From contig LR778114.1 in the NCBI GenBank assembly GCA_902809825.1, positions 992,001-1,056,000 on the forward strand: a stretch of 64,000 nucleotides of DNA. Direction: 5' to 3'. Origin of the DNA: Candidatus Hydrogenisulfobacillus filiaventi. GTDB taxonomy: Bacteria > Bacillota > Sulfobacillia > Sulfobacillales > R501. The position numbers were made by a program, and so were the translations under genes. Shown one piece after another: positions 12,116 to 23,878 of the stretch. The notes beneath the pieces are model-generated. The model was given only the letters and a program-made list of their open reading frames with translations. It searched no databases and was not told where the DNA came from. Each line of letters opens with the position of its first letter. Position 1 is the stretch's first letter.

Positions 12116-12391
12116 ATGTGTCTGGCAATTCCCGGCAAGATTGTCGAAATTGTGGATGAGGAGAACGATATCGCCAAATTGGATGTAAGCGGTGTTCGGC
12201 GCAATGTGAATATTGCTCTACTGAGGAATCAGGGTGTAGAGGTCTCACCCGGAAGTTGGGTTTTAGTGCATGTTGGTTTTGCGATGTCGAAGTTGGGAGA
12301 CCAAGAGGCCAAAGAAATGTTGCGGGAACTAAAATCTATTGGCCGAGAAGCTGTAGACGACATTAAGCAATGGGGCGACAGCGTGTTTTGA
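12116..12391 (+). CDS. hypC: hydrogenase maturation chaperone HypC (copy 1)
   Basis: HypC works with HypD to assemble the Fe(CN)2CO group and deliver it to the hydrogenase large-subunit precursor. The 91-residue protein begins MCLAIPGKIVEI, with the essential Cys2 that becomes N-terminal after Met removal, followed by the OB-like core RRNVNIALL and GSWVLVHVGFAM. I chose ATG 12116 because the protein must start MC; AAGGGGGAC lies upstream. It leads the hypC-hypD-hypE-tatA unit. Two other HypC-like genes occur in the window. Confidence 0.95.
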   Translation: MCLAIPGKIVEIVDEENDIAKLDVSGVRRNVNIALLRNQGVEVSPGSWVLVHVGFAMSKLGDQEAKEMLRELKSIGREAVDDIKQWGDSVF

Positions 12392-12448
12392 ATGTGCCGT
12401 GGATAACTGTTGGAGGTCGGGATAACGAGAGGAGGAAGGAGGTCGAGC

Positions 12449-13549
12449 ATGAAGTACGCCGACGAATACCGGGACCAGGAATTAGCAAAGCGCGTGGCGG
12501 ATGAGATCGATCGGGTGGCTGGCGGTCGGTCCATTAATATAATGGAATTCTGCGGTGGTCATACTCACGTCATTTTTAAGTATGGCCTGGAAGAAATGTT
12601 GCCAGCCAATGTGCGAATGTTGCACGGTCCCGGATGTCCGGTGTGCGTGCTTCCTATAGGGCGCCTTGATGATGCGATGCACCTCGCGCGTAGACCAGGG
12701 GTGATTTTTACTACCTTCGCGGACATGATGCGCGTGCCGGGATCGAACGGAAGTTTGCTGGATATAAAAGCGGCAGGGGCGGACGTGCGATTTGTATACT
12801 CCCCTCTTGATGCTCTAAAAATCGCCCAACAGAATCCTGATCGAGAAGTTATATTTTTTGCGATTGGATTTGAAACGACCGCCCCTTCCACAGCAGTTAC
12901 CCTTTTAAAGGCCAAATCTCTCGACGTGCGAAATTTCTCGGTTTTTGCCAACCACGTTCTCGTAATACCACCGATGCGCGCATTGCTGGACTCTCCGGAA
13001 ATTCGTATTGAGGGATTCCTTGGCCCTGGGCATGTAAGTATGGTTATCGGACTTGACCCATATCGGGTGATCGCCCGCGAGTATGGTCGGCCGGTCGTAG
13101 TAACAGGGTTTGAGCCGCTGGATGTTTTGCAGGCAATTCTTATGGTCGTGCGGCAGGTGAGTGAGGGACGGGCCGAGGTTGAAAATCAGTATCTTCGGGC
13201 AGTCCGACCCGAGGGAAACCCCAAGGCCTTAGAAGCGATAAACGCAACTATGGAGGTTCGGCAAGAGTTTAAATGGCGGGGTTTGGGTTCGATTGCCCGG
13301 AGCGGGCTAAGATTGCGGCCTGAATTTCAACCGTGGGATGCGGAGGAGCGATTTGGAGTGCCGGGACGTGAAGTCGCTGACCATCCGTCCTGCCAGTGCG
13401 GGGAGGTGCTAAGAGGCCTTATTAAGCCGTGGGAGTGCCGCGCCTTTGGAACCGCTTGCACCCCGCAGGCGCCCATCGGAACTTGCATGGTGTCGCCCGA
13501 AGGCGCCTGCGCAGCCTATTACAACTATGGGCGGTTTCAATTTCGCTAA
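12449..13549 (+). CDS. hypD: hydrogenase maturation protein HypD
   Basis: HypD is the Fe-S scaffold on which the iron site with its CO and CN ligands is built together with HypC. The 366-residue length is normal. Signature stretches are NIMEFCGGHTHVIFKYG, MLHGPGCPVCVLP, FFAIGFETTAPSTA and the C-terminal cysteine cluster region (HPSCQCGEVLRG, PWECRAFGTACTPQAPIGTCMVS). ATG 12449 follows GGAGGAAGGAGG. It lies 57 bases after hypC and 27 bases before hypE. Confidence 0.96.
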   Translation: MKYADEYRDQELAKRVADEIDRVAGGRSINIMEFCGGHTHVIFKYGLEEMLPANVRMLHGPGCPVCVLPIGRLDDAMHLARRPGVIFTTFADMMRVPGSNGSLLDIKAAGADVRFVYSPLDALKIAQQNPDREVIFFAIGFETTAPSTAVTLLKAKSLDVRNFSVFANHVLVIPPMRALLDSPEIRIEGFLGPGHVSMVIGLDPYRVIAREYGRPVVVTGFEPLDVLQAILMVVRQVSEGRAEVENQYLRAVRPEGNPKALEAINATMEVRQEFKWRGLGSIARSGLRLRPEFQPWDAEERFGVPGREVADHPSCQCGEVLRGLIKPWECRAFGTACTPQAPIGTCMVSPEGACAAYYNYGRFQFR

Positions 13550-13576
13550 GAACTAGCAACAGGGGGTGTTTCGATC

Positions 13577-14668
13577 GTGGGAGAACAGGCGGATCCTGCC
13601 CGGGTGCTCGAAAAGATCCGCATTGCCGAGGAAACTCGCCGCTCGCGGTTCATTGGCCAGGAGGCCATTACGCTGAGCCATGGCGCCGGTGGGAAGGCCT
13701 CGTTCGAGTTAATTGAGGGTCTCATTGGGCCGGCCTTTTCCAATCCGCTGCTAGACTCGCTAGACGATGCTGCCGTGATCGGCCTTCCACAAGGACTCCG
13801 GCTCGCTTTCACCACCGACAGCTATACTGTTAGCCCTCTTTTCTTTCCAGGGGGGAATATTGGGAGCCTCGCAGTTCATGGCACCGTCAATGACCTGGCG
13901 GTTTCCGGAGCTGTTCCCGTGGCCCTGTCCGCCGGATTCATTCTGGAAGAGGGTTTTTCGGTCACGCAGCTTCGGGCGATTGTTGAGGCAATGGCGCTGG
14001 CTGCCCGGAAGATTGGCGTGCCTATTGTCACGGGTGACACTAAGGTCGTGCCCAAAGGAAAGGGCGATGGAATTTACATCAATACTGCTGGGGTTGGCAT
14101 TGTCCGCGCTGTATGGCATATGGGACGCGATGCAGTGCAGCCCGGCGACCGGGTGATTTTGAGTGGCAGCATTGGCGATCACGGGGTCGCGGTAATGATT
14201 GCCCGCCAAGGGCTCGAACTTGAGGCTGAAATTGAGAGCGATACATCTCCTCTTCACGAGTTGGCCGCGCGACTTATCGATGGAGTAGGCAGTGCGCTGC
14301 ATTGCATGAAGGATCCCACGCGTGGAGGTGTAGCGACTACCCTTAACGAGGTAGCCCAGGGGTCGAATTGCGCCATCGCAGTCGACGAAGCCGCCATTCC
14401 GGTGCGTCCCGAGGTAAATGGCGCTTGCGAAATTCTCGGCCTGGACCCCCTGACACTTGCCAATGAAGGGAAATTACTGGCCTTTGTGGCCCCGGAGGCA
14501 GCCGAGAAAGCGCTTCGTATCCTAAGGGAACATCCGTTGGGGGCGGACAGTGTCATTATCGGCGAGGTCGAAGAAGGGCCGGCCCACATGGTCTACCTGC
14601 GTACCATACTTGGTGGACGGCGGGTGCTCGACATGCTGGTAGGCGATCCGCTGCCCAGGATCTGTTGA
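13577..14668 (+). CDS. hypE: hydrogenase maturation protein HypE
   Basis: HypE dehydrates the carbamoyl group received from HypF on its own C-terminal Cys to thiocyanate, the cyanide donor for the NiFe site. The 363-residue protein has the AIR-synthase-like fold signatures LSHGAGGKASFELI, DDAAVIGLP, TDSYTVSPLFFPGGNIG and KDPTRGGVATTLNE, and ends in PRIC with the required terminal cysteine. The start is GTG 13577 behind AGGGGGTG. Next is tatA, 13 bases downstream. Confidence 0.97.
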   Translation: MGEQADPARVLEKIRIAEETRRSRFIGQEAITLSHGAGGKASFELIEGLIGPAFSNPLLDSLDDAAVIGLPQGLRLAFTTDSYTVSPLFFPGGNIGSLAVHGTVNDLAVSGAVPVALSAGFILEEGFSVTQLRAIVEAMALAARKIGVPIVTGDTKVVPKGKGDGIYINTAGVGIVRAVWHMGRDAVQPGDRVILSGSIGDHGVAVMIARQGLELEAEIESDTSPLHELAARLIDGVGSALHCMKDPTRGGVATTLNEVAQGSNCAIAVDEAAIPVRPEVNGACEILGLDPLTLANEGKLLAFVAPEAAEKALRILREHPLGADSVIIGEVEEGPAHMVYLRTILGGRRVLDMLVGDPLPRIC

Positions 14669-15201: not shown

Positions 15202-16518
15202 ATGCCACAGAAGTCGGATAAGCCAGCGGCGTTTTCCGACCTTCCCAAGGTCGACGGACGTCCAATGGAGGGTTCGCCGGACGGCGCGCATGTTGACATT
15301 GACCGGGTCCTGGCTCAAGTAGACCGTCGGTTAGATCTGCTGGCGGATCAAGGACCGGCATCTGAAACGGTCCTGGATAAAATTCTAGCCGCAGGCTATA
15401 CCCGGCGCGACTTTTTAAAATGGACATCGATGTTAACCGCTGCTATGATGCTGCCGCCGGTTTTTGAGCCGAGGGTGGCACGCGCGGCATCGTTAACCCA
15501 CCGAGTGCCGGTTATCTGGATTAACCTCCAAGACTGTGACGGTAATACCGAATCCCTGCTGCGCACCGCTGATCCCGGATTCGCGGAAGTCATTCTGGAT
15601 ACGATTTCGCTCGATTATAACGAAACGGTGATGGCGCCGTCGGGTTCGGCATCCGAAAAAAGCCTTAACGATAGCCTCGCTAAGAACAAGGGCCAATATG
15701 TCGCAGTGTTCGAAGGCTCGCTGCCCACGGGTCTCAATGGCGGGTATTTAACCATCGGGTCGTCGGGGGAGACCGGCCTCAGCCTAGCGAAACGTGTAGC
15801 GGCCGGGGCCAGTCTGGTCATGGCGGCTGGCACCTGTGCGGCATTTGGAGGTATCCCTGCAGCCCATCCCAATCCGACAGGCGCGAAAGGCGTTTCTGAT
15901 GCACTGGGCATACCAGTGGTGAATATCTCTGGCTGTCCCGCTAATGCCACGAACATCGTTGGCACTATTCTTGAGGTTGTGATGTTCGGAAACAAGCCGC
16001 CGCTTGACCGGTACGGGCGGCCAATGTGGGCCTATGGCCATCGGATCCATGACAATTGTGAACGGCGTGGGCATTTTGACGCTGGCGAGTACGTAACACA
16101 GTGGGGCGATACCGCCGCTCAAAACGGGTGGTGCCTGTTCAAGATGGGCTGTAAGGGGCCATACACCTTTAATAACTGTCCCCAAGTTCGCTGGAACCAG
16201 CAGGTATCCTGGCCGATACGTGCTGGCCACGGGTGCATCGGGTGTGCAGAGCCTAACTTCTGGGACACCATGACTCCGTTTGAACAGCCTTTATCCGCCA
16301 ATATTTATGGCAGTGCGCTAGGGATTGCGGCTGACGCGAAGGCGAACACAGTTGGCGGCGTCGTGTTAGGGGTGGCCGCTGCGGGCATCGTGGTACACGC
16401 TGGTGCAACGGCGATTCGGAATCGGGCTAACCCCGATTGGAAGGACGAAAAGGAATCCGAGAAAAAAGGCTTCACCCCGGATGGGAAGAAAACCCCGCCT
16501 ACGGCTCCAGGAGCCTAA
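15202..16518 (+). CDS. group 1 [NiFe]-hydrogenase small subunit, Tat-exported, with altered proximal-cluster motif
   Basis: The small subunit carries three Fe-S clusters from the NiFe site to cytochrome b. The 438 residues include an unusually long 66-residue leader before the Tat motif TRRDFLK (67-73) and a C-terminal membrane helix (about 375-395). Distal-cluster ligands are H283, C286, C311 and C317; medial ligands are C326, C345 and C348, with Pro338 nearby. Proximal ligands C212 (GTCAAFGG) and C245 (SGCPAN) are present, but the first motif reads IWINLQDCDGNTESLLR: C112 is there while the usual second cysteine is Asn115. In E. coli Hya the matching stretch is Q-E-C-T-x-C-T-E-S. ATG 15202 follows AAGAGGAGG. 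Confidence 0.95.
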   Translation: MPQKSDKPAAFSDLPKVDGRPMEGSPDGAHVDIDRVLAQVDRRLDLLADQGPASETVLDKILAAGYTRRDFLKWTSMLTAAMMLPPVFEPRVARAASLTHRVPVIWINLQDCDGNTESLLRTADPGFAEVILDTISLDYNETVMAPSGSASEKSLNDSLAKNKGQYVAVFEGSLPTGLNGGYLTIGSSGETGLSLAKRVAAGASLVMAAGTCAAFGGIPAAHPNPTGAKGVSDALGIPVVNISGCPANATNIVGTILEVVMFGNKPPLDRYGRPMWAYGHRIHDNCERRGHFDAGEYVTQWGDTAAQNGWCLFKMGCKGPYTFNNCPQVRWNQQVSWPIRAGHGCIGCAEPNFWDTMTPFEQPLSANIYGSALGIAADAKANTVGGVVLGVAAAGIVVHAGATAIRNRANPDWKDEKESEKKGFTPDGKKTPPTAPGA

Positions 16519-16553: not shown

Positions 16554-18242
16554 ATGGCACTTAACCGCGTAACCATTGACCCCATCACGCGAATTGAAGG
16601 GCACCTGCGGATCGAGGTGGACCTGGATGCGAACAATGTTGTACGTGACGCATATAGCTCTTCAACCATGTTTCGGGGCATTGAGCTTATCCTGAAGGGA
16701 CGGGACCCCCGGGACGCGGGGCTCTTTGCACAGCGGATTTGCGGCGTATGTACGTTTAGCCACTACGACCGGGCAACAGAGGCTGTGGAGGCAGCACTTG
16801 GTGTCCAGATTCCTGACACGGCACGGCTAGTTCGGAATCTTTTGAACGCGTCGTTGTTTATTCACGACCACGTCGTTCACTTCTACCAGCTTCATGGAAT
16901 GGACTGGTTCGATCCAGTGTCCGCCCTGCAGGCGTCACCGGCGAAGGCAGCCCAGGTTGCGCAGCAATACGCCGCGACCCCGTTTAACGCGGGCCAGGGA
17001 ACCTACGAAGCTGTTCAAGCCCGTCTCAAGAAATTCGTGGAGTCAGGCCAACTGGGACCTTTCGCAAATGGATACTGGGGACACCCGGCGTATCAACTCA
17101 GTCCTGAGCAGAATCTCATTATGTTGTCCCATTATCTAGATGCTCTTAAGGTGCAGCGTACCCTGGCTCAGGCGATGACGGTCTTCGGTGGGAAGAACCC
17201 CCACCCGCAAAGTCTGGTTGTAGGTGGCGTGACGTCCATAATGGACGTCGTGGACCCTTCCCGGGTGTCTGAGTACCTTTTCAAAATGAAGTCCGGTGCA
17301 GACTTCGTCGAGAACGCATATATGGCCGATATGCGGATGCTCGGGGAGGTATACCGCGGTGAGGCAGCGGCTGGCATTGGGGCCGGCGTCGGAAACTATC
17401 TTGATTATGGAGGGTTCCCACAGGACAATCTCGGGTGGCCCCGGGCAAAAGACTTTTTCCCGGGAGGCGTTATTCTGAACCGCGATTTGAATCACATCGC
17501 GCCTGTGGACGCGAATGCTATCACCGAAGATGTAACCCACGCGTGGTACGCGGGGCCGGACAAGGGAGTTGGCCCCTTTGAGGAGGAGACCATCCTCCAG
17601 TACACCGGCTTGGAGCCGGACGGTGCTCTCAATCGTGCAGGCAAGTATAGCTGGATCAAGGCGCCGCGGTATCATGGAAAGCCCATGGAGGGCGGCCCGT
17701 TGGCTCGGTTCCTGATCGCACGCGGGCTTAAGGCCGAGCCGCAGGCGTCGCTCATGAACGAGTTCGAGCAGCAAGTAGGTTGGAAGCCCAGCTATTGGTT
17801 CTCCACGGTCGGCCGGACGGCTGCTCGAGCGTTGGAGGCGCAAGCCTTGGCCCGGACAGTGCCGGCATGGGTCGATGAACTCGTTAGCAATGTGGCCCAT
17901 GGCAACACCCAAACCTATGCAGAGTGGCAGATGAAGGACGGCGACGGATTTGCGCTTCGTTCCGCCCCGCGCGGGGCTCTTGGCCATTGGGTGAAAATTC
18001 GTAACGGGCAAATTGTTGCCTACCAGGCCGTGGTGCCCAGTACATGGAACGCGAGTCCGCGTGACCATCTAAATCAGCGTGGTCCCTATGAGGAGGCGTT
18101 GATGAACACCAAGGTAGCCATACCGGATCAGCCTGTGGAAGTGCTACGGACGATTCATTCCTTCGATCCGTGCATTGGCTGTGCGGTCCACTTGTTTGAT
18201 GCTGCCGGGCAAGAGATCGGGCAGTTTCAGATCGATGTGTAG
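16554..18242 (+). CDS. group 1 [NiFe]-hydrogenase large subunit
   Basis: This is the catalytic subunit, which splits H2 at the Ni-Fe centre. The 562-residue precursor has nickel ligands C63/C66 in RICGVCTFSH and C540/C543 in DPCIGCAVH. The 16 residues after H546 are the peptide removed by the maturation protease once nickel is inserted. Other landmarks are IDPITRIEGHLRIEVD and MFRGIELILKGRDP. It has no own export signal and would cross the membrane bound to the Tat-exported small subunit. ATG 16554 follows AAGGGGGAC. Mid-sequence similarity (LFIHDHVVHFYQLHGMDWFD) is to Hya/Hup-type membrane-bound uptake enzymes. Confidence 0.97.
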   Translation: MALNRVTIDPITRIEGHLRIEVDLDANNVVRDAYSSSTMFRGIELILKGRDPRDAGLFAQRICGVCTFSHYDRATEAVEAALGVQIPDTARLVRNLLNASLFIHDHVVHFYQLHGMDWFDPVSALQASPAKAAQVAQQYAATPFNAGQGTYEAVQARLKKFVESGQLGPFANGYWGHPAYQLSPEQNLIMLSHYLDALKVQRTLAQAMTVFGGKNPHPQSLVVGGVTSIMDVVDPSRVSEYLFKMKSGADFVENAYMADMRMLGEVYRGEAAAGIGAGVGNYLDYGGFPQDNLGWPRAKDFFPGGVILNRDLNHIAPVDANAITEDVTHAWYAGPDKGVGPFEEETILQYTGLEPDGALNRAGKYSWIKAPRYHGKPMEGGPLARFLIARGLKAEPQASLMNEFEQQVGWKPSYWFSTVGRTAARALEAQALARTVPAWVDELVSNVAHGNTQTYAEWQMKDGDGFALRSAPRGALGHWVKIRNGQIVAYQAVVPSTWNASPRDHLNQRGPYEEALMNTKVAIPDQPVEVLRTIHSFDPCIGCAVHLFDAAGQEIGQFQIDV

Positions 18243-18305: not shown

Positions 18306-19022
18306 ATGAGCAAACAGACGACACCCCGTGAGGAGTTTTCTGTTACGGTGCGGTGGATGCACTGGATCCGTTTTGCGCTCATCATGTGGTTAATCGCCAC
18401 GGGATTCGAAATTGCCAATCCGTACCTGGGTACTAACCCGAACGTGACCGCCTTCCAGAACTTTACCGTCGAACTTGTCCGCGGTAGCCACGAGCTGGCC
18501 GGCCTGGTCCTTATTGCGGCGCTGTTGATTCGGGTATACACTATGATCCTTAATCGCGAATGGCGGGACGGTAAAGTAGCGTTATCCTGGAAAAGATGGC
18601 GCTCGCAACTGGCCTACTATCTGCTACTCGGACCGGCTTACCGGCATGGGGAGTCAAGGTATGGACCGCTGCAGTTCGTGACGTACATGATTTTTTACGT
18701 AATGCTGGTACTCATCAGCGTAACCGGGTTGCTCTTGTTCGGTGCCAATTATAAGGCAGGAGGAATAGGATATTTCTCCTATCACGATCTTGGATTTCTC
18801 TACCCCGTTTTTGGTGGGTTAGCGGGAGCGCGGATCTGGCATCATTGGTTGGCCTGGGGCATCATTGTCTTTGTGGCCGTGCACGTTTACATGGCGTTTT
18901 GGAACTCCATAGAGAACAAGGATGGTACCTTGGAGTCTATGGTGGTTGGATACAAGCGCGAGCAAGGGGATGAAACGGATCTCGGGGCATCTGAGGCCAT
19001 CGAACGAGCAAAAGGAGGGTAG
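18306..19022 (+). CDS. hydrogenase cytochrome b subunit (HyaC/HupC-like)
   Basis: This 238-residue integral membrane di-haem cytochrome b would accept electrons from the distal cluster of the small subunit and pass them to quinone. It has four or more hydrophobic segments with candidate haem histidines in VRWMHWIRFAL, GSHELAGLVL, ARIWHHWLAWG and FVAVHVYMAFWN. The MHW and HVYMAF patterns are typical of HyaC/HupC. It follows the large subunit with a strong AAGGAGGAG site. The C-terminal tail is short and acidic. Confidence 0.92.
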   Translation: MSKQTTPREEFSVTVRWMHWIRFALIMWLIATGFEIANPYLGTNPNVTAFQNFTVELVRGSHELAGLVLIAALLIRVYTMILNREWRDGKVALSWKRWRSQLAYYLLLGPAYRHGESRYGPLQFVTYMIFYVMLVLISVTGLLLFGANYKAGGIGYFSYHDLGFLYPVFGGLAGARIWHHWLAWGIIVFVAVHVYMAFWNSIENKDGTLESMVVGYKREQGDETDLGASEAIERAKGG

Positions 19023-19025
19023 GCC

Positions 19026-19598
19026 GTGCACAGTGAGGAGGCTCTTCCTCGCCGCAATGTGCTTGTCATCGGCTTAGGTAATATTCTCCTGCGGGACGAA
19101 GGGATTGGAGTTCATCTTCTCTATCATTTGCGGCGCAAGTACTCGTTTCAGCCAGCAATTGCCGTTGCCGACGGCGGCACGCTGGGATGGCAATTGATGG
19201 ATGTTCTGGCTGCGTTTGATCACATTGTTATTATCGATGCGATTAACGCGGCAGCGAAGCCTGGTACGATTGTGCGATTCAAGCTCGAGGATCTTCATAA
19301 ATGGGTTGTGAAGGCCAGCGGTTCGTCTCACGAGGTCGAAATTCTGGAGGTTATGGCGGCGCTACAACTTGTCGGTGAGGCCCCGGACGCGGTCGTTATC
19401 GGCATTGTACCCGAAGACGTTAATGGGCTTGGGGTGTATCTGTCCGATACCGTTCTTGCTCGGGTATCTGCGCTGGAGGACGTAGTGTTACATGAGTTGC
19501 GGGGGTTTGGTGTGGTGCCCAGCGTGCAGGAGGACGTGGCGTTTGATGTGGACCCGGATAGGCTCGTTCACGATACCGCGTGGCCGTATCCGGAATGA
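19026..19598 (+). CDS. hydrogenase maturation protease (HyaD/HybD family)
   Basis: This endopeptidase removes the C-terminal peptide of the large subunit after nickel insertion. The 190 residues begin NVLVIGLGNILLRDEGIGVHL. The nickel-sensing ligands of the family are E25 (RDEG), D71 (IIDAIN) and H102 (SSHEVEIL), all present. It starts at GTG 19026 behind AAGGAGGG, three bases after the cytochrome b stop. It presumably acts on the 16-residue tail of the large subunit encoded just upstream. Confidence 0.94.
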   Translation: MHSEEALPRRNVLVIGLGNILLRDEGIGVHLLYHLRRKYSFQPAIAVADGGTLGWQLMDVLAAFDHIVIIDAINAAAKPGTIVRFKLEDLHKWVVKASGSSHEVEILEVMAALQLVGEAPDAVVIGIVPEDVNGLGVYLSDTVLARVSALEDVVLHELRGFGVVPSVQEDVAFDVDPDRLVHDTAWPYPE

Positions 19599-19612
19599 AG
19601 GAGGTTGAGCTA

Positions 19613-19861
19613 ATGTGTCTTGCACTTCCCTACCGGGTGGTTGAGGTCATCGATTCAGAGTCCTGCATTGTCGAGGGTGGGGGAAGGCGACGGCATGTCT
19701 TTTATGATGAAATCCCTGATCTAACTGTGGGTGACTACGTTGTAGTTGAGGCCAATATCGTTCTAGACCGCGTTCCCGAGAGTGAGGCCCAACGGATAAT
19801 CGCTGCTACCGTTGAATACGTATTCGGCGCTCCGGGCGCTGAACGGGAAACAGAGTCATGA
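19613..19861 (+). CDS. HypC/HupF-family chaperone (copy 2)
   Basis: This 82-residue protein starts MCLALPYRVVEVI with the diagnostic Cys2, followed by RHVFYDEIPDLTVGDYVVVEANIVL, the HypC core with a shortened C-terminus. ATG 19613 follows GGAGG and overlaps nothing upstream. Lying inside the structural operon, it resembles HybG or HupF, which are paralogues specialised for one large subunit; that specialisation is inferred. It differs considerably from copy 1 (YRVVEVID against GKIVEIVD). Confidence 0.9.
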   Translation: MCLALPYRVVEVIDSESCIVEGGGRRRHVFYDEIPDLTVGDYVVVEANIVLDRVPESEAQRIIAATVEYVFGAPGAERETES

Positions 19862-19862
19862 C

Positions 19863-20438
19863 ATGAGCGGGGTTCGGATTGATCGGCGCGATTTTCTGCG
19901 CCTGGCATGGCACCGGGGCCGAACGATAATGGCCGGGCTGGGCCGGGTGCCGCCCGTTGGCGCCAGTCCTCCAGTCCGGCCAAGGTTGCGGCCCCCTGGT
20001 GCTGTGCAAGAGGGTGTGTTTGAGAAGCTTTGCACCGGGTGCGGAAGCTGTGTGGAAGCGTGCGGGGTCGGTGCGATTCGGGTCGATCCCGACGGGCGTC
20101 CTATCGTCGAGCCTGCCGTGCAGGCATGTGTATTGTGCGTTGATATTCCCTGTTCGAGGGCTTGCGCGACGGGTGCGCTGAAACCCGTCGTTGAGGCCTG
20201 GCAAGTTAAGATCGGCACCGCTCGCGTGGCCATCGATCGCTGTGTCCACTTACACGCCGAGGATGGATGCGGGCGATGTGTTCAGGCGTGTCCGCTTGGC
20301 GCCCGCGCCATTCGACTGTACCCGGACGCCCCAGCACCTGATATCTCGGCGCTAGTGTGCACGGGGTGCGGGCTTTGTGCGGCCGCGTGCCCTACAGAGC
20401 CACCGGCTATTGACATCAACGGTGACTTCCTTTGGTGA
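19863..20438 (+). CDS. Tat-type multi-cluster ferredoxin (NapG/NapH-neighbour or HybA-like)
   Basis: This 191-residue protein has an N-terminal twin-arginine sequence IDRRDFLRLAW, though the following stretch is less hydrophobic than a standard signal. Cysteine groups are CTGCGSCVEAC, CVLCVDIPCSRAC, CVHLHAEDGCGRCVQAC and CTGCGLCAAAC, predicting four [4Fe-4S] clusters. The pattern resembles periplasmic NapG/MauM-type ferredoxins. The start ATG follows the HypC2 stop by one base. It could be an extra electron relay between the hydrogenase and an acceptor such as the sulfur reductase; this is inference. Confidence 0.8.
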   Translation: MSGVRIDRRDFLRLAWHRGRTIMAGLGRVPPVGASPPVRPRLRPPGAVQEGVFEKLCTGCGSCVEACGVGAIRVDPDGRPIVEPAVQACVLCVDIPCSRACATGALKPVVEAWQVKIGTARVAIDRCVHLHAEDGCGRCVQACPLGARAIRLYPDAPAPDISALVCTGCGLCAAACPTEPPAIDINGDFLW

Positions 20439-20463: not shown

Positions 20464-21264
20464 GTGAGCATGGCCATGGAAGAGACCCGGGCTCATTTGG
20501 AGGAGCAGGTGGCGTCTGCGCGCGTGCGCGTGGGGCTTGAAGTGGAATGGCGAGTGCCGGGGTTTGCGTGGACTGCCGACCAGTTGACCCGGTTGTATGA
20601 GGACCGGCACACCTTTGATGAGGAGGTGCGGGAGGCCCTCGAGGTATTGTACAGATATGATGTTCCTTTGCGCCGTTATGAAGAGGAGCTTGTGCAAGGC
20701 GGTTTAGATCCGCTTCAGAACTATCTCGAGTTTCAGGCTGCTCTCACTGCCTTTGAGGACGCATTTTGGAAAGCTCAGGTTCTAGATTTTTCGGACTCCA
20801 ATTCTGGCGGTAATCCCGATGAAACCCTGGCCAATTGGTGGAAAGCGCGAAGGAGTGGTGCTAGAGGTCCTTTGACCCGTACCCTGGTTACTCAACGAAG
20901 CGCCACTGAAGTTGCAGCACATGTTCAGCAAATTGCGCTAGGAAACGATCTTACCTACGAAGGGGTTAAGACGGTCCCCCTTGGTGGGGGTGACGATCAA
21001 AACCCCGCCAAGGCGCTAGTGCTCGCCCTTCAGCCTCGGCGGCATGTGGAGACGTTAATTCCCGTCAACCCCGCAATTATCGGGATGCTTCCCTACCGTA
21101 TAGTATTTCGGCCGGTCGGCAAGCACCGTATAGAGGTCATTGTGCCATCCATTTTGGGTCAGCTGCTGTGGGAGTCCGAATACCCCGTGGAAGTGTTGAA
21201 AGCGTTGGCGTGGTTTGATGTAATTGAGGAAATGTTGCTGACGTGCGTCGATTGGCTCAGGTAG
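20464..21264 (+). CDS. hydrogenase-operon protein of unknown function
   Basis: I do not recognise this protein of about 266 residues. It is soluble, without signal peptide or cysteine motifs, and acidic and helical in its first half (EEVREALEVLYRYDVPLRRYEEELVQ), with a more beta-rich C-terminal half (RHVETLIPVNPAIIGMLPYRIVFRPV). GTG 20464 has a GGGGGTGG site upstream; ATG 20470 and 20476 are alternatives. It lies between the ferredoxin and hypA genes in a tight operon, so a role in assembly of this particular hydrogenase is likely. It is not an obvious HupH, HoxQ or HyaE homologue. Confidence 0.8.
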   Translation: MSMAMEETRAHLEEQVASARVRVGLEVEWRVPGFAWTADQLTRLYEDRHTFDEEVREALEVLYRYDVPLRRYEEELVQGGLDPLQNYLEFQAALTAFEDAFWKAQVLDFSDSNSGGNPDETLANWWKARRSGARGPLTRTLVTQRSATEVAAHVQQIALGNDLTYEGVKTVPLGGGDDQNPAKALVLALQPRRHVETLIPVNPAIIGMLPYRIVFRPVGKHRIEVIVPSILGQLLWESEYPVEVLKALAWFDVIEEMLLTCVDWLR

Positions 21265-21280: not shown

Positions 21281-21652
21281 ATGCACGAAATGGGTCTAAT
21301 GGCTGGCGTTCTCGAGGTTGTTCACGAATCCGCCGTGGAGAACCATATTAAGGATGTTACCGTGGTGCGGCTGCGCGTCGGAAAACTGAACGGAGCCCTT
21401 CCGGACGCGTTGGAGTTTGCCTTTGAGGCACTCCGGGCCGATTGGCAGGAAATTAAGCAGGCCGAACTGGTCATCGAGTCGGTGCCCGGTCGGATGGTGT
21501 GCCTTGAATGCGGGCTAGACCAGGAAGTCAGTGAATTCGGCGTGGAATGCGTGTCTTGCGGATCCTGGGTGACGGAGGTGAGATCGGGTACCGAGTTTGA
21601 AATCGTAGGCTATGAGGGCTTTCCCAGCGAGGAACGGGGGCAAGCGAGTTGA
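21281..21652 (+). CDS. hypA: hydrogenase nickel insertion protein HypA
   Basis: HypA delivers nickel with HypB to the large subunit. The 123 residues start MHEMGLMAGV with the nickel-binding MHE N-terminus, and the structural zinc site is C74-x2-C77 and C90-x2-C93. An extra 20-residue tail follows the usual end. The stop overlaps the hypB start (AGTTGA), so the two are coupled. Confidence 0.96.
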   Translation: MHEMGLMAGVLEVVHESAVENHIKDVTVVRLRVGKLNGALPDALEFAFEALRADWQEIKQAELVIESVPGRMVCLECGLDQEVSEFGVECVSCGSWVTEVRSGTEFEIVGYEGFPSEERGQAS

Positions 21653-22314
21653 ACGGGCGATCAGCAATAGACGTGCAGCTTCACGTCTCCGCTCTTGGCA
21701 AGAACGATAAAATCGCTGCCGAAAACCGTGAATTATGTGAGCGTGCCGGGGTGCACATGATTAATGTGCTTGGTTCGCCTGGCGCTGGCAAGACGACCTT
21801 ACTTGAGCTTGTATTAGGCGAGCTTGCCCGCGAATTTGCGGTTGGGGTTATTGAGGGCGATCTGGCTACGACGCGTGACGCCGAGCGAATCGCGGGAACC
21901 GGCGTCCCCGTAATACAACTTAATACCGACGGGCTTTGCCACCTCGACGCCAGGATGGTGCAGCGTGCCCTTAAAAGTCTCCCACTCGGGTCGCTCGACT
22001 TTGTTATAGTTGAGAATGTTGGTAATCTCGTGTGCCCCGCCGATTTTAGCCTCGGCGAACACCGTAGGCTGGGCGTGTTAAGTACCACCGAGGGCGGAGA
22101 CAAGATTGTAAAGTACGCCAAATTGTTTCGGATTCTTGACGCCCTGGTGGTTAGTAAAACAGATTTGTTGCCATTCACGGACTTTGACGTGCAGGCAGCG
22201 GCCGAGGACTTTGCGCGTTTGTGTCCCTCCGGCGAGGTGTTCCCGGTGTCCGCCAGGAAAGGCGAGGGCATCGATGCGGTGGTGAAATGGATATCCGCGC
22301 CTGCGTTGGTCTGA
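21649..22314 (+). CDS. hypB: hydrogenase nickel incorporation GTPase HypB
   Basis: This SIMIBI-class GTPase acts with HypA in nickel insertion. The 221 residues have the P-loop GSPGAGKTT (42-50), IEGDLATTRDAERI, C97-H98 of the metal-binding dimer site (GLCHLDARMV), IVENVGNLVCPADF, and the guanine-specificity motif SKTD. It starts at TTG 21649 overlapping the hypA stop. The protein lacks the N-terminal histidine-rich nickel store found in many HypB proteins; the next gene encodes a separate His-rich protein. Confidence 0.95.
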   Translation: MNGRSAIDVQLHVSALGKNDKIAAENRELCERAGVHMINVLGSPGAGKTTLLELVLGELAREFAVGVIEGDLATTRDAERIAGTGVPVIQLNTDGLCHLDARMVQRALKSLPLGSLDFVIVENVGNLVCPADFSLGEHRRLGVLSTTEGGDKIVKYAKLFRILDALVVSKTDLLPFTDFDVQAAAEDFARLCPSGEVFPVSARKGEGIDAVVKWISAPALV

Positions 22315-22764: not shown

Positions 22765-23110
22765 GTCTAAGGGGGGAGTTGAAATAAAAACGGCCGGGTG
22801 CGACGATGCCAAGGCGGCCCGGGGAGCGCGCATCAGAAACTACGGGGTATTTGCAGGGGAAAACGGGCCGCATGTCGAGAAGGCGCTGTAAGTGGTGTAA
22901 CGCGCTGCCGGGCGGCTGTGGCCGGCGCCGCAGGCGCCCGGACGCAAGCGGGGTATCGGGCTAAGAGCCAGCGGGCTGGTAAGGAGCGATAGACGCCGGC
23001 AACCCGCCAGGGCCCGTACAGCCATAGCGTGGTGGCCGGGTCGGGCACGGCGCATGGACCAAGATAGCTGGCAGCTGGTCGCTGATAGCCGGGATACAAA
23101 GGAGGGTGCG
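22765..23110. other. gap without a recognised gene
   Basis: About 350 bases of moderately high G+C, with no convincing gene and no clear terminator. The next gene starts behind GGAGGG at its downstream edge. Confidence 0.45.
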
Positions 23111-23878
23111 ATGCACATCAGCCAGGAGTTGGCTCAGCAAGGTCTTCTGCGGTTTGGCCGATACGCCTTTCCTCCCAATCGGCTCGGCTACTGCGGCCCG
23201 GACGACCATCGGGGGCTATTCCAGCACGTGGTGGCACAAAAGGCCGACGGTGGCCTATTGGAGTTAGCGAAAAATTTCGAAGGCGCCTATCCGTATTTGC
23301 GTTTTATTGCCGAAAGCAACGGTATTAAAGATCCGTTTGATGAACGTGTTGTCGAGGCGTACTGGGTTGGAAATGCGCTGCTCGATGCGATCCTGCCGGA
23401 GCAGTTTGCTCGGTTTGTTGATGATACCTTCAAGGTGATGCTAGGAAGTGAACGGTTAGCGCAATTGAAAGCGAAGCTTCACAAAGGAGGGCGCCCGCAT
23501 CACAATTTTCACGTTTTTAATATCTTTCTCTTGACCCAAAAGGCTAAAGCGGGCTCGTCTCCTGCCAGCAGCCGAGCGCTCGCGGCTATGGATGGCTGCC
23601 GGATTAGCTGGGGGCAAGTAGTCGGTGTCGTAGGGTCCGAGTTAATCGTCAACAGTCCTCGCGTTAAGGTCGCCGACAACCGGCTCGTGCTGGGCGCGCC
23701 AGAACCGATTCAGGTGCAATGGAAGTGGGAACAAAACGGTTGGCTCCAATCCATTGCCCCTGGCAGTATCGTGTCTTTACACTGGGATTGGGTGTGTGAG
23801 GTGCTGGACCCAAAGAGATTGGAAAGGCTGAAGGCATTTACCAGTCGGTTTTTGGCGCTTGCCAATGACATGATATAG
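23111..23878 (+). CDS. DUF6390-like hydrogenase-associated protein
   Basis: This 255-residue soluble protein begins near LLRFGRYAFPPNRLGYCGPDDHRGLFQHV; the pattern RYAFPPNxLGYCGPxD matches what I remember of the DUF6390 family, which occurs beside [NiFe]-hydrogenase genes. Other stretches are RVVEAYWVGNALLD and RPHHNFHVFNIFLLT, followed by a beta-rich second half. ATG 23111 follows AAAGGAGGGTGCG. No enzymatic motif is evident. It is likely an assembly or regulatory factor of the hydrogenase. Confidence 0.75.
   Translation: MHISQELAQQGLLRFGRYAFPPNRLGYCGPDDHRGLFQHVVAQKADGGLLELAKNFEGAYPYLRFIAESNGIKDPFDERVVEAYWVGNALLDAILPEQFARFVDDTFKVMLGSERLAQLKAKLHKGGRPHHNFHVFNIFLLTQKAKAGSSPASSRALAAMDGCRISWGQVVGVVGSELIVNSPRVKVADNRLVLGAPEPIQVQWKWEQNGWLQSIAPGSIVSLHWDWVCEVLDPKRLERLKAFTSRFLALANDMI

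Follow-up and report, generated by a model that had tools for sequence, protein, structure and literature searches.

"Ca. Hydrogenisulfobacillus filiaventi" R50, whose genome is a single contig of 2,570,337 bases, is described in the accessible text of a published account as a thermoacidophilic H2 oxidizer from volcanic soil with an optimum at pH 3 and 55 °C, and the enzyme considered here is named HynAB and placed in group 1b in that text (PMC10080006). Its genes lie within the window, that is, the whole stretch of 64,000 nucleotides that was analysed, and are arranged together with maturation genes as follows.

12116-14668, plus strand: hypC, hypD, and hypE, upstream of the structural genes
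15202-16518, plus strand: small subunit HynA (name from PMC10080006; TIGR00391 hydA), 438 aa, with a Tat signal and a C-terminal membrane helix
15400-15489, plus strand: twin-arginine signal T-R-R-D-F-L-K-W (aa 67-74), hydrophobic stretch, and A-R-A, together aa 67-96 (from the sequence)
15535-15546, plus strand: codons of C112-D113-G114-N115, with Asn in the place of the fourth Cys of the proximal-cluster motif (from sequence and alignment)
15835-15837, plus strand: C212, a remaining proximal ligand, equivalent to C115 of Hyd-1 (from alignment)
15934-15936, plus strand: C245, a remaining proximal ligand, equivalent to C149 of Hyd-1 (from alignment)
16213-16215, plus strand: P338 at the medial-cluster position, as is usual where the medial cluster is [3Fe-4S] (from alignment)
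16554-18242, plus strand: large subunit HynB, with the L1 (RICGVC) and L2 (DPCIGCAVH) motifs intact
18306-19022, plus strand: b-type cytochrome subunit (TIGR02125, Ni_hydr_CYTB)
19026-19598, plus strand: HupD/HyaD-type maturation endopeptidase
19604-19861, plus strand: HypC/HupF family protein
19812-20438, plus strand: NapG/NapF-like ferredoxin, kept in Sulfobacillus operons; its start is uncertain and it overlaps hypC
20467-21264, plus strand: conserved protein of unknown function, syntenic in Sulfobacillus relatives; its start is assumed
21281-22314, plus strand: hypA and hypB (from the sequence)

Of the conserved proteins encoded close to the operon at 20467-21264 and 23054-23875, one has no Pfam match and one is a DUF6390 protein; in Sulfobacillus genomes, relatives of both lie at the hydrogenase operon.

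HynA starts at the ATG at 15202, with its 438 residues encoded by 15202-16515, and scores 440 bits against TIGR00391 (cut-off, 179.5). The Tat motif is preceded by an N-terminal extension of 66 residues, and R68, R69, D70, F71, and W74 are invariant among the aligned relatives. The signal at 15400-15489 is clear and contradicts the accessible text of PMC10080006, in which the small subunit is said to lack a Tat signal and the enzyme is inferred to be cytoplasmic; the 66-residue extension may have hidden the signal from signal predictors. In HynB, the His of the NPHPQ motif, which faces the proximal cluster, is intact. A confident AlphaFold2 (AF2) model of the small subunit, made without the cluster, fits solved small subunits in a fold-level structure search (pLDDT of 84.8 with a 62-sequence input).

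The codons at 15535-15546, TGT GAC GGT AAT, encode Cys112-Asp113-Gly114-Asn115 of this [NiFe]-hydrogenase small subunit, with C112 specified by TGT at 15535-15537 and N115 by AAT at 15544-15546. Residue equivalence was fixed by HMMER alignments to the solved small subunits of DvMF (1h2a) and E. coli Hyd-1, in which W-I-N-L-Q-D-C-D-G-N-T-E-S of HynA pairs without a gap with E-C-T-G-C-S-E-S and E-C-T-C-C-T-E-S, respectively, and N115 takes the exact place of Cys20 (Hyd-1 numbering), the fourth proximal cysteine. The distal ligands (H283, C286, C311, and C317) and the medial ligands (C326, C345, and C348) are all present and, together with C112, C212, and C245, make up ten Cys/His ligands that show no variation across 62 aligned, diverse small subunits; position 115 is thus the sole cluster ligand that varies. 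The C-D-G-N substitution is therefore confirmed. The preliminary description, in which Asn was read in place of the second cysteine of the motif in an exact alignment with all other cluster ligands intact, is borne out in each of these respects. An inserted residue that could supply a cysteine ligand from elsewhere was looked for near the motif, and none was found in the gap-free alignment; further C-D-G-N sequences, which that description had proposed to seek, occur in relatives of the same class at 67-70% identity.

Among relatives with more than 44% identity, 53 distinct small subunits carry Asn at this position, 82 carry C-T-G-C, and one carries C-T-C-C, with no intermediates. The 53 Asn-type subunits span Sulfobacillus relatives, Deinococcota, and Campylobacterota, and Asn is encoded in such relatives by AAC at 39 and AAT at 16 of the counted sites, with TGT or TGC in the Cys-type. 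In Deinococcota, a match was found in 14 of 111 genomes, the fetched group 1 copies reading C-T-G-N or C-S-G-N, and in Campylobacterota the strongly matching type was found in 27 of 150 sampled genomes, with C-A-G-N in every fetched copy. The Tat-type members of the Asn form share the operon order small subunit-large subunit-cytochrome b-hupD-hyp. As judged from these sequences, Asn characterizes a large set of related enzymes spread over three phyla and is no isolated oddity.

Variants were also observed around this set. A further form in Sulfurovum and Sulfuricurvum has C-S-G-N without a Tat motif, and here a pyridine-nucleotide oxidoreductase and a BFD-like [2Fe-2S] domain precede the small subunit in one fused protein. 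Such fused subunits were seen in Campylobacterota at five loci (L064:10-2307, L093, L068, L037, and L215; checked with Pfam in L064), and in the loci examined they lie near a 1b operon and have no adjacent cytochrome b. In the Arcobacter group (L063 and L207), Asn-type and Cys-type hynAB-cytb operons adjoin each other, forming a natural matched pair. The fourth proximal position is occupied by His in one small subunit (C-D-G-H; L012:1441-2307, minus strand), and a 1h-like subunit of a Meiothermus genome (L141; genome G355) has C-D-G-C, with Cys where 1h enzymes normally have Asp. In another subunit (L199:1513-2298, minus strand), both the first and the fourth proximal Cys are replaced, giving N-D-S-G-D against A-C-S-G-D in relatives; this genome is of metagenome quality, and the reading may need checking.

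In small-subunit trees, the Asn-type relatives of the 1b enzymes form one group, supported at 90/93 and at 88/92 (the latter not strong), beside canonical sequences from Campylobacterota, Desulfurella, and Tharpella. The large-subunit tree unites the Sulfobacillus and Deinococcota forms (97/97) and places the canonical Campylobacterota group, with weak support, among the other Asn forms, which corresponds to two changes. One origin of Asn followed by a reversal and two separate origins are thus both possible readings of these trees for the 1b relatives. Elsewhere in the tree, Asn also occupies this site in HucS of group 2a and in a 1f-like sequence (L195), and because these branch apart from the 1b-like set, Asn was gained more than once.

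Membership of [NiFe]-hydrogenase group 1 follows from the TIGR00391 match, the RICGVC and DPCIGCAVH motifs, and TRRDFLKW. HynA was found with the Campylobacterota and Desulfurella 1b enzymes and apart from the CTCC (1d) and Desulfovibrio types. It has C-D-G-N instead of the canonical Cys4 site C-x-G-C of group 1b; this site is no strict mark of the group, however, since 1b is listed among the groups with three-cysteine enzymes in PMC5364354. Assignment to group 1d, the O2-tolerant enzymes with a Cys6 [4Fe-3S] cluster, is ruled out by G114 and G217, which stand where the supernumerary Cys are expected, and assignment to group 1h by Asn115, the Tat signal, and the identity of 31% shared with the 1h subunit encoded in the R50 genome. 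Nor is HynA a member of group 2a (Huc), since HucS lies on a distant branch along with other CNGN sequences. In kind, though not as a clade, HynA belongs with the enzymes having a three-Cys proximal cluster, the fourth position being non-Cys and the other three intact. The Hya type, with which the motif was aligned in the preliminary description, is not the one to which HynA belongs, as HynA stands beside group 1b in the trees and in its published naming. A separate C-D-G-D enzyme of the 1h type is present as a second hydrogenase in the R50 genome. The closest structural precedent for C-x-G-N is HucS of group 2a and not group 1h, which that description had cited.

Several characterized systems resemble HynAB. 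The group 1b enzymes of Campylobacterota (HydABC/HynABC of Helicobacter, Campylobacter, and Wolinella) share ~46-55% small-subunit identity, the long extension before the Tat motif, the cytochrome b partner, and the hupD/hyp operon, but have E-C-T-G-C where HynA has D-C-D-G-N together with further changes at the proximal site. HucSL of M. smegmatis (group 2a; PDB 7utd/7uur) is alike in C-x-G-N, in the equivalents of P219 and A247, and in its three proximal Cys, but is distant, lacks both Tat signal and cytochrome b, has [3Fe-4S] medial and distal clusters as well, and binds menaquinone directly. HofK/HofG of C. necator (1h; PDB 5aa5) and the second R50 hydrogenase likewise lack the fourth proximal Cys in a C-D-G-x motif, but with Asp instead of Asn, a cytosolic location, and ~31% identity. 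In HupS of Methylacidimicrobium and in group 1f enzymes, one of the four proximal cysteines is replaced by Asn or Asp (PMC5364354); HupS is discussed there beside 1d, and 1f is another branch, the 1f-like L195 being apart from the 1b-like set. Finally, in Aliarcobacter butzleri a second, respiratory hynAB set lies close to the first, with both at higher levels on H2 (PMC12286921). To judge from the tandem pair in Aliarcobacter vitoriensis (L063), this second set is probably a C-A-G-N form, with Ala at 113 and beside a canonical Cys copy, whereas R50 carries the Asn form only.

The three-cysteine kind as such was already known, since Asn in place of one proximal Cys was reported in 2017 for HupS of mesophilic Methylacidimicrobium, with Asn or Asp in group 1f, Asn coordination in group 2a, and three-cysteine members in groups 1b, 1f, and 1g (PMC5364354). 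The missing proximal cysteine is not mentioned in the accessible text on HynAB (PMC10080006), the proximal cluster is not discussed in the HydDB paper, and among the matches listed in a literature search the CxGN pattern led to unrelated papers only. New here are the breadth of the 1b-like Asn set and the way it branches, the strict conservation of the remaining ligands, and the comparison with HucS.

Besides position 115, eleven small-subunit positions separate the Asn-type from the Cys-type 1b relatives. Six of the eleven (108, 111, 209, 219, 247, and 250) are no more than 7 residues away from a proximal ligand, compared with 47 of the 277 positions overall (p ~0.004 by a hypergeometric test with a threshold of our choosing and with relatedness ignored). 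Pro247 is absent from all non-Cys rows, although some Cys-type rows also have A/V247 and P219, so that the covariation is not strict. In HucS, where Asn arose independently, positions 219 and 247 are likewise Pro and Ala. Together, the covarying positions are suggestive of a remodelled proximal pocket.

We propose, with a probability of roughly 0.55, that HynAB functions as a cytochrome-b-linked uptake hydrogenase, exported through the Tat pathway and related to group 1b, and that three of its Cys hold a proximal [3Fe-4S] cluster, with Asn115 lining the vacant corner without ligating iron. The proposal of a [3Fe-4S] cluster is built on HucS, which has C-S-G-N (aligned site in 7uur, G-A-C-S-G-N-T), is the only solved C-x-G-N relative found, and has a published proximal [3Fe-4S] cluster; high-resolution maps, the identity of the fourth residue, and EPR underlie the assignment of all three of its clusters as [3Fe-4S] (PMC10017518). 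As [3Fe-4S] couples lie ~250 mV above [4Fe-4S] couples (PMC10017518), the proximal potential of HynA would be ~0.25 V above that of a [4Fe-4S] cluster. Electrons would pass from NiFe through the proximal [3Fe-4S], the medial [3Fe-4S], and the distal [4Fe-4S] cluster to the cytochrome, and two consecutive high-potential [3Fe-4S] clusters would favor H2 uptake over H2 production. A gain in O2 tolerance is possible, but would not be automatic, since a C. necator MBH variant speaks against this (PMC10583674). Against the three-Cys [3Fe-4S] reading stand the cytosolic, flavin-fused Asn-type forms with a pyridine-nucleotide oxidoreductase domain, in which a high-potential relay would be odd.

A doubtful but possible alternative is that the proximal [4Fe-4S] cluster is kept, with its fourth iron bound by the side chain of Asn115 or by a water or hydroxide held there. 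An amide oxygen is a weaker ligand than a carboxylate, which counts against an Asn-ligated [4Fe-4S] cluster, as does the assignment of [3Fe-4S] rather than [4Fe-4S] to HucS. On the other hand, the C-D-G-D enzymes of group 1h keep a [4Fe-4S] cluster with Asp as the fourth ligand, and the Asn case is treated as 4Fe4S coordination by Mohammadi et al. (both PMC5364354).

As for why Cys was exchanged for Asn, adaptation to an external pH of 3 is an unlikely reason. R50 grows optimally at pH 3 and 55 °C, an enzyme with a Tat signal would be exposed to the surroundings, and acidophilic Methylacidimicrobium also has Asn (PMC5364354); moreover, the H+/H2 couple is computed to be ~ -0.195 V at pH 3 and 55 °C against -0.456 V at pH 7, a difference of nearly the same size as the 0.25 V gap between [4Fe-4S] and [3Fe-4S]. 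The Asn type is, however, also found in lineages of Campylobacterota and Deinococcota not known as acidophiles, which rules out acidity as the general cause.

That Asp113 supplies the fourth ligand of a [4Fe-4S] cluster in place of Cys115, as the preliminary description had allowed, is improbable. The seven distinct Sulfobacillus-type sequences all have Asp113, as do the 1h C-D-G-D enzymes, but in the latter the second Asp sits at the Cys position, so that the first is not needed as a replacement. Of the 53 Asn-type subunits, 27 have Ala at position 113, 11 have Thr, 8 have Ser, and just 7 have Asp; Asp113 is thus a feature of the Sulfobacillus branch rather than a partner of Asn, and Ala, Thr, or Ser in 46 of the 53 rules it out as a ligand conserved across the group.

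A sequencing error (with GAT or TGT as the true codon) or a nonfunctional pseudogene can be dismissed, for although AAT is one base from GAT (Asp) and the assembly was nanopore-first, if polished with Illumina reads, Asn is conserved in the 53 relatives from independent assemblies with both AAT and AAC and without intermediates, which in practice excludes a miscalled base, and the frame is intact and the operon transcribed (assembly and transcription according to the accessible text of PMC10080006).

We suggest, tentatively, that the Asn-type 1b relatives as a whole make up an unrecognized subgroup of exported, cytochrome-b-linked enzymes that have a proximal [3Fe-4S] cluster, and thus two high-potential [3Fe-4S] clusters in succession, are biased toward uptake, and are fit for oxic or acidic settings. 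If this is true, the label of "O2-sensitive group 1b" would be wrong for them, and expression in R50 at every tested O2 level would be explained: according to the accessible text of PMC10080006, the operon was transcribed at 0.2-7.5% air saturation with no sign of O2 sensitivity. The physiology of R50 does not isolate HynAB, however, because the organism also has the 1h enzyme.

HynA-type enzymes thus give reason to doubt such labels. Metagenome surveys read O2 sensitivity and role from the hydrogenase subgroup, and should the fourth Cys be absent from a sizeable share of "group 1b", these predictions may mislead for Sulfobacillus relatives, Meiothermus and other Deinococcota, and the Arcobacter group. 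Where Asn and Cys copies stand side by side in one genome, they offer matched pairs for the effect of the proximal cluster on catalytic bias and on the response to O2.
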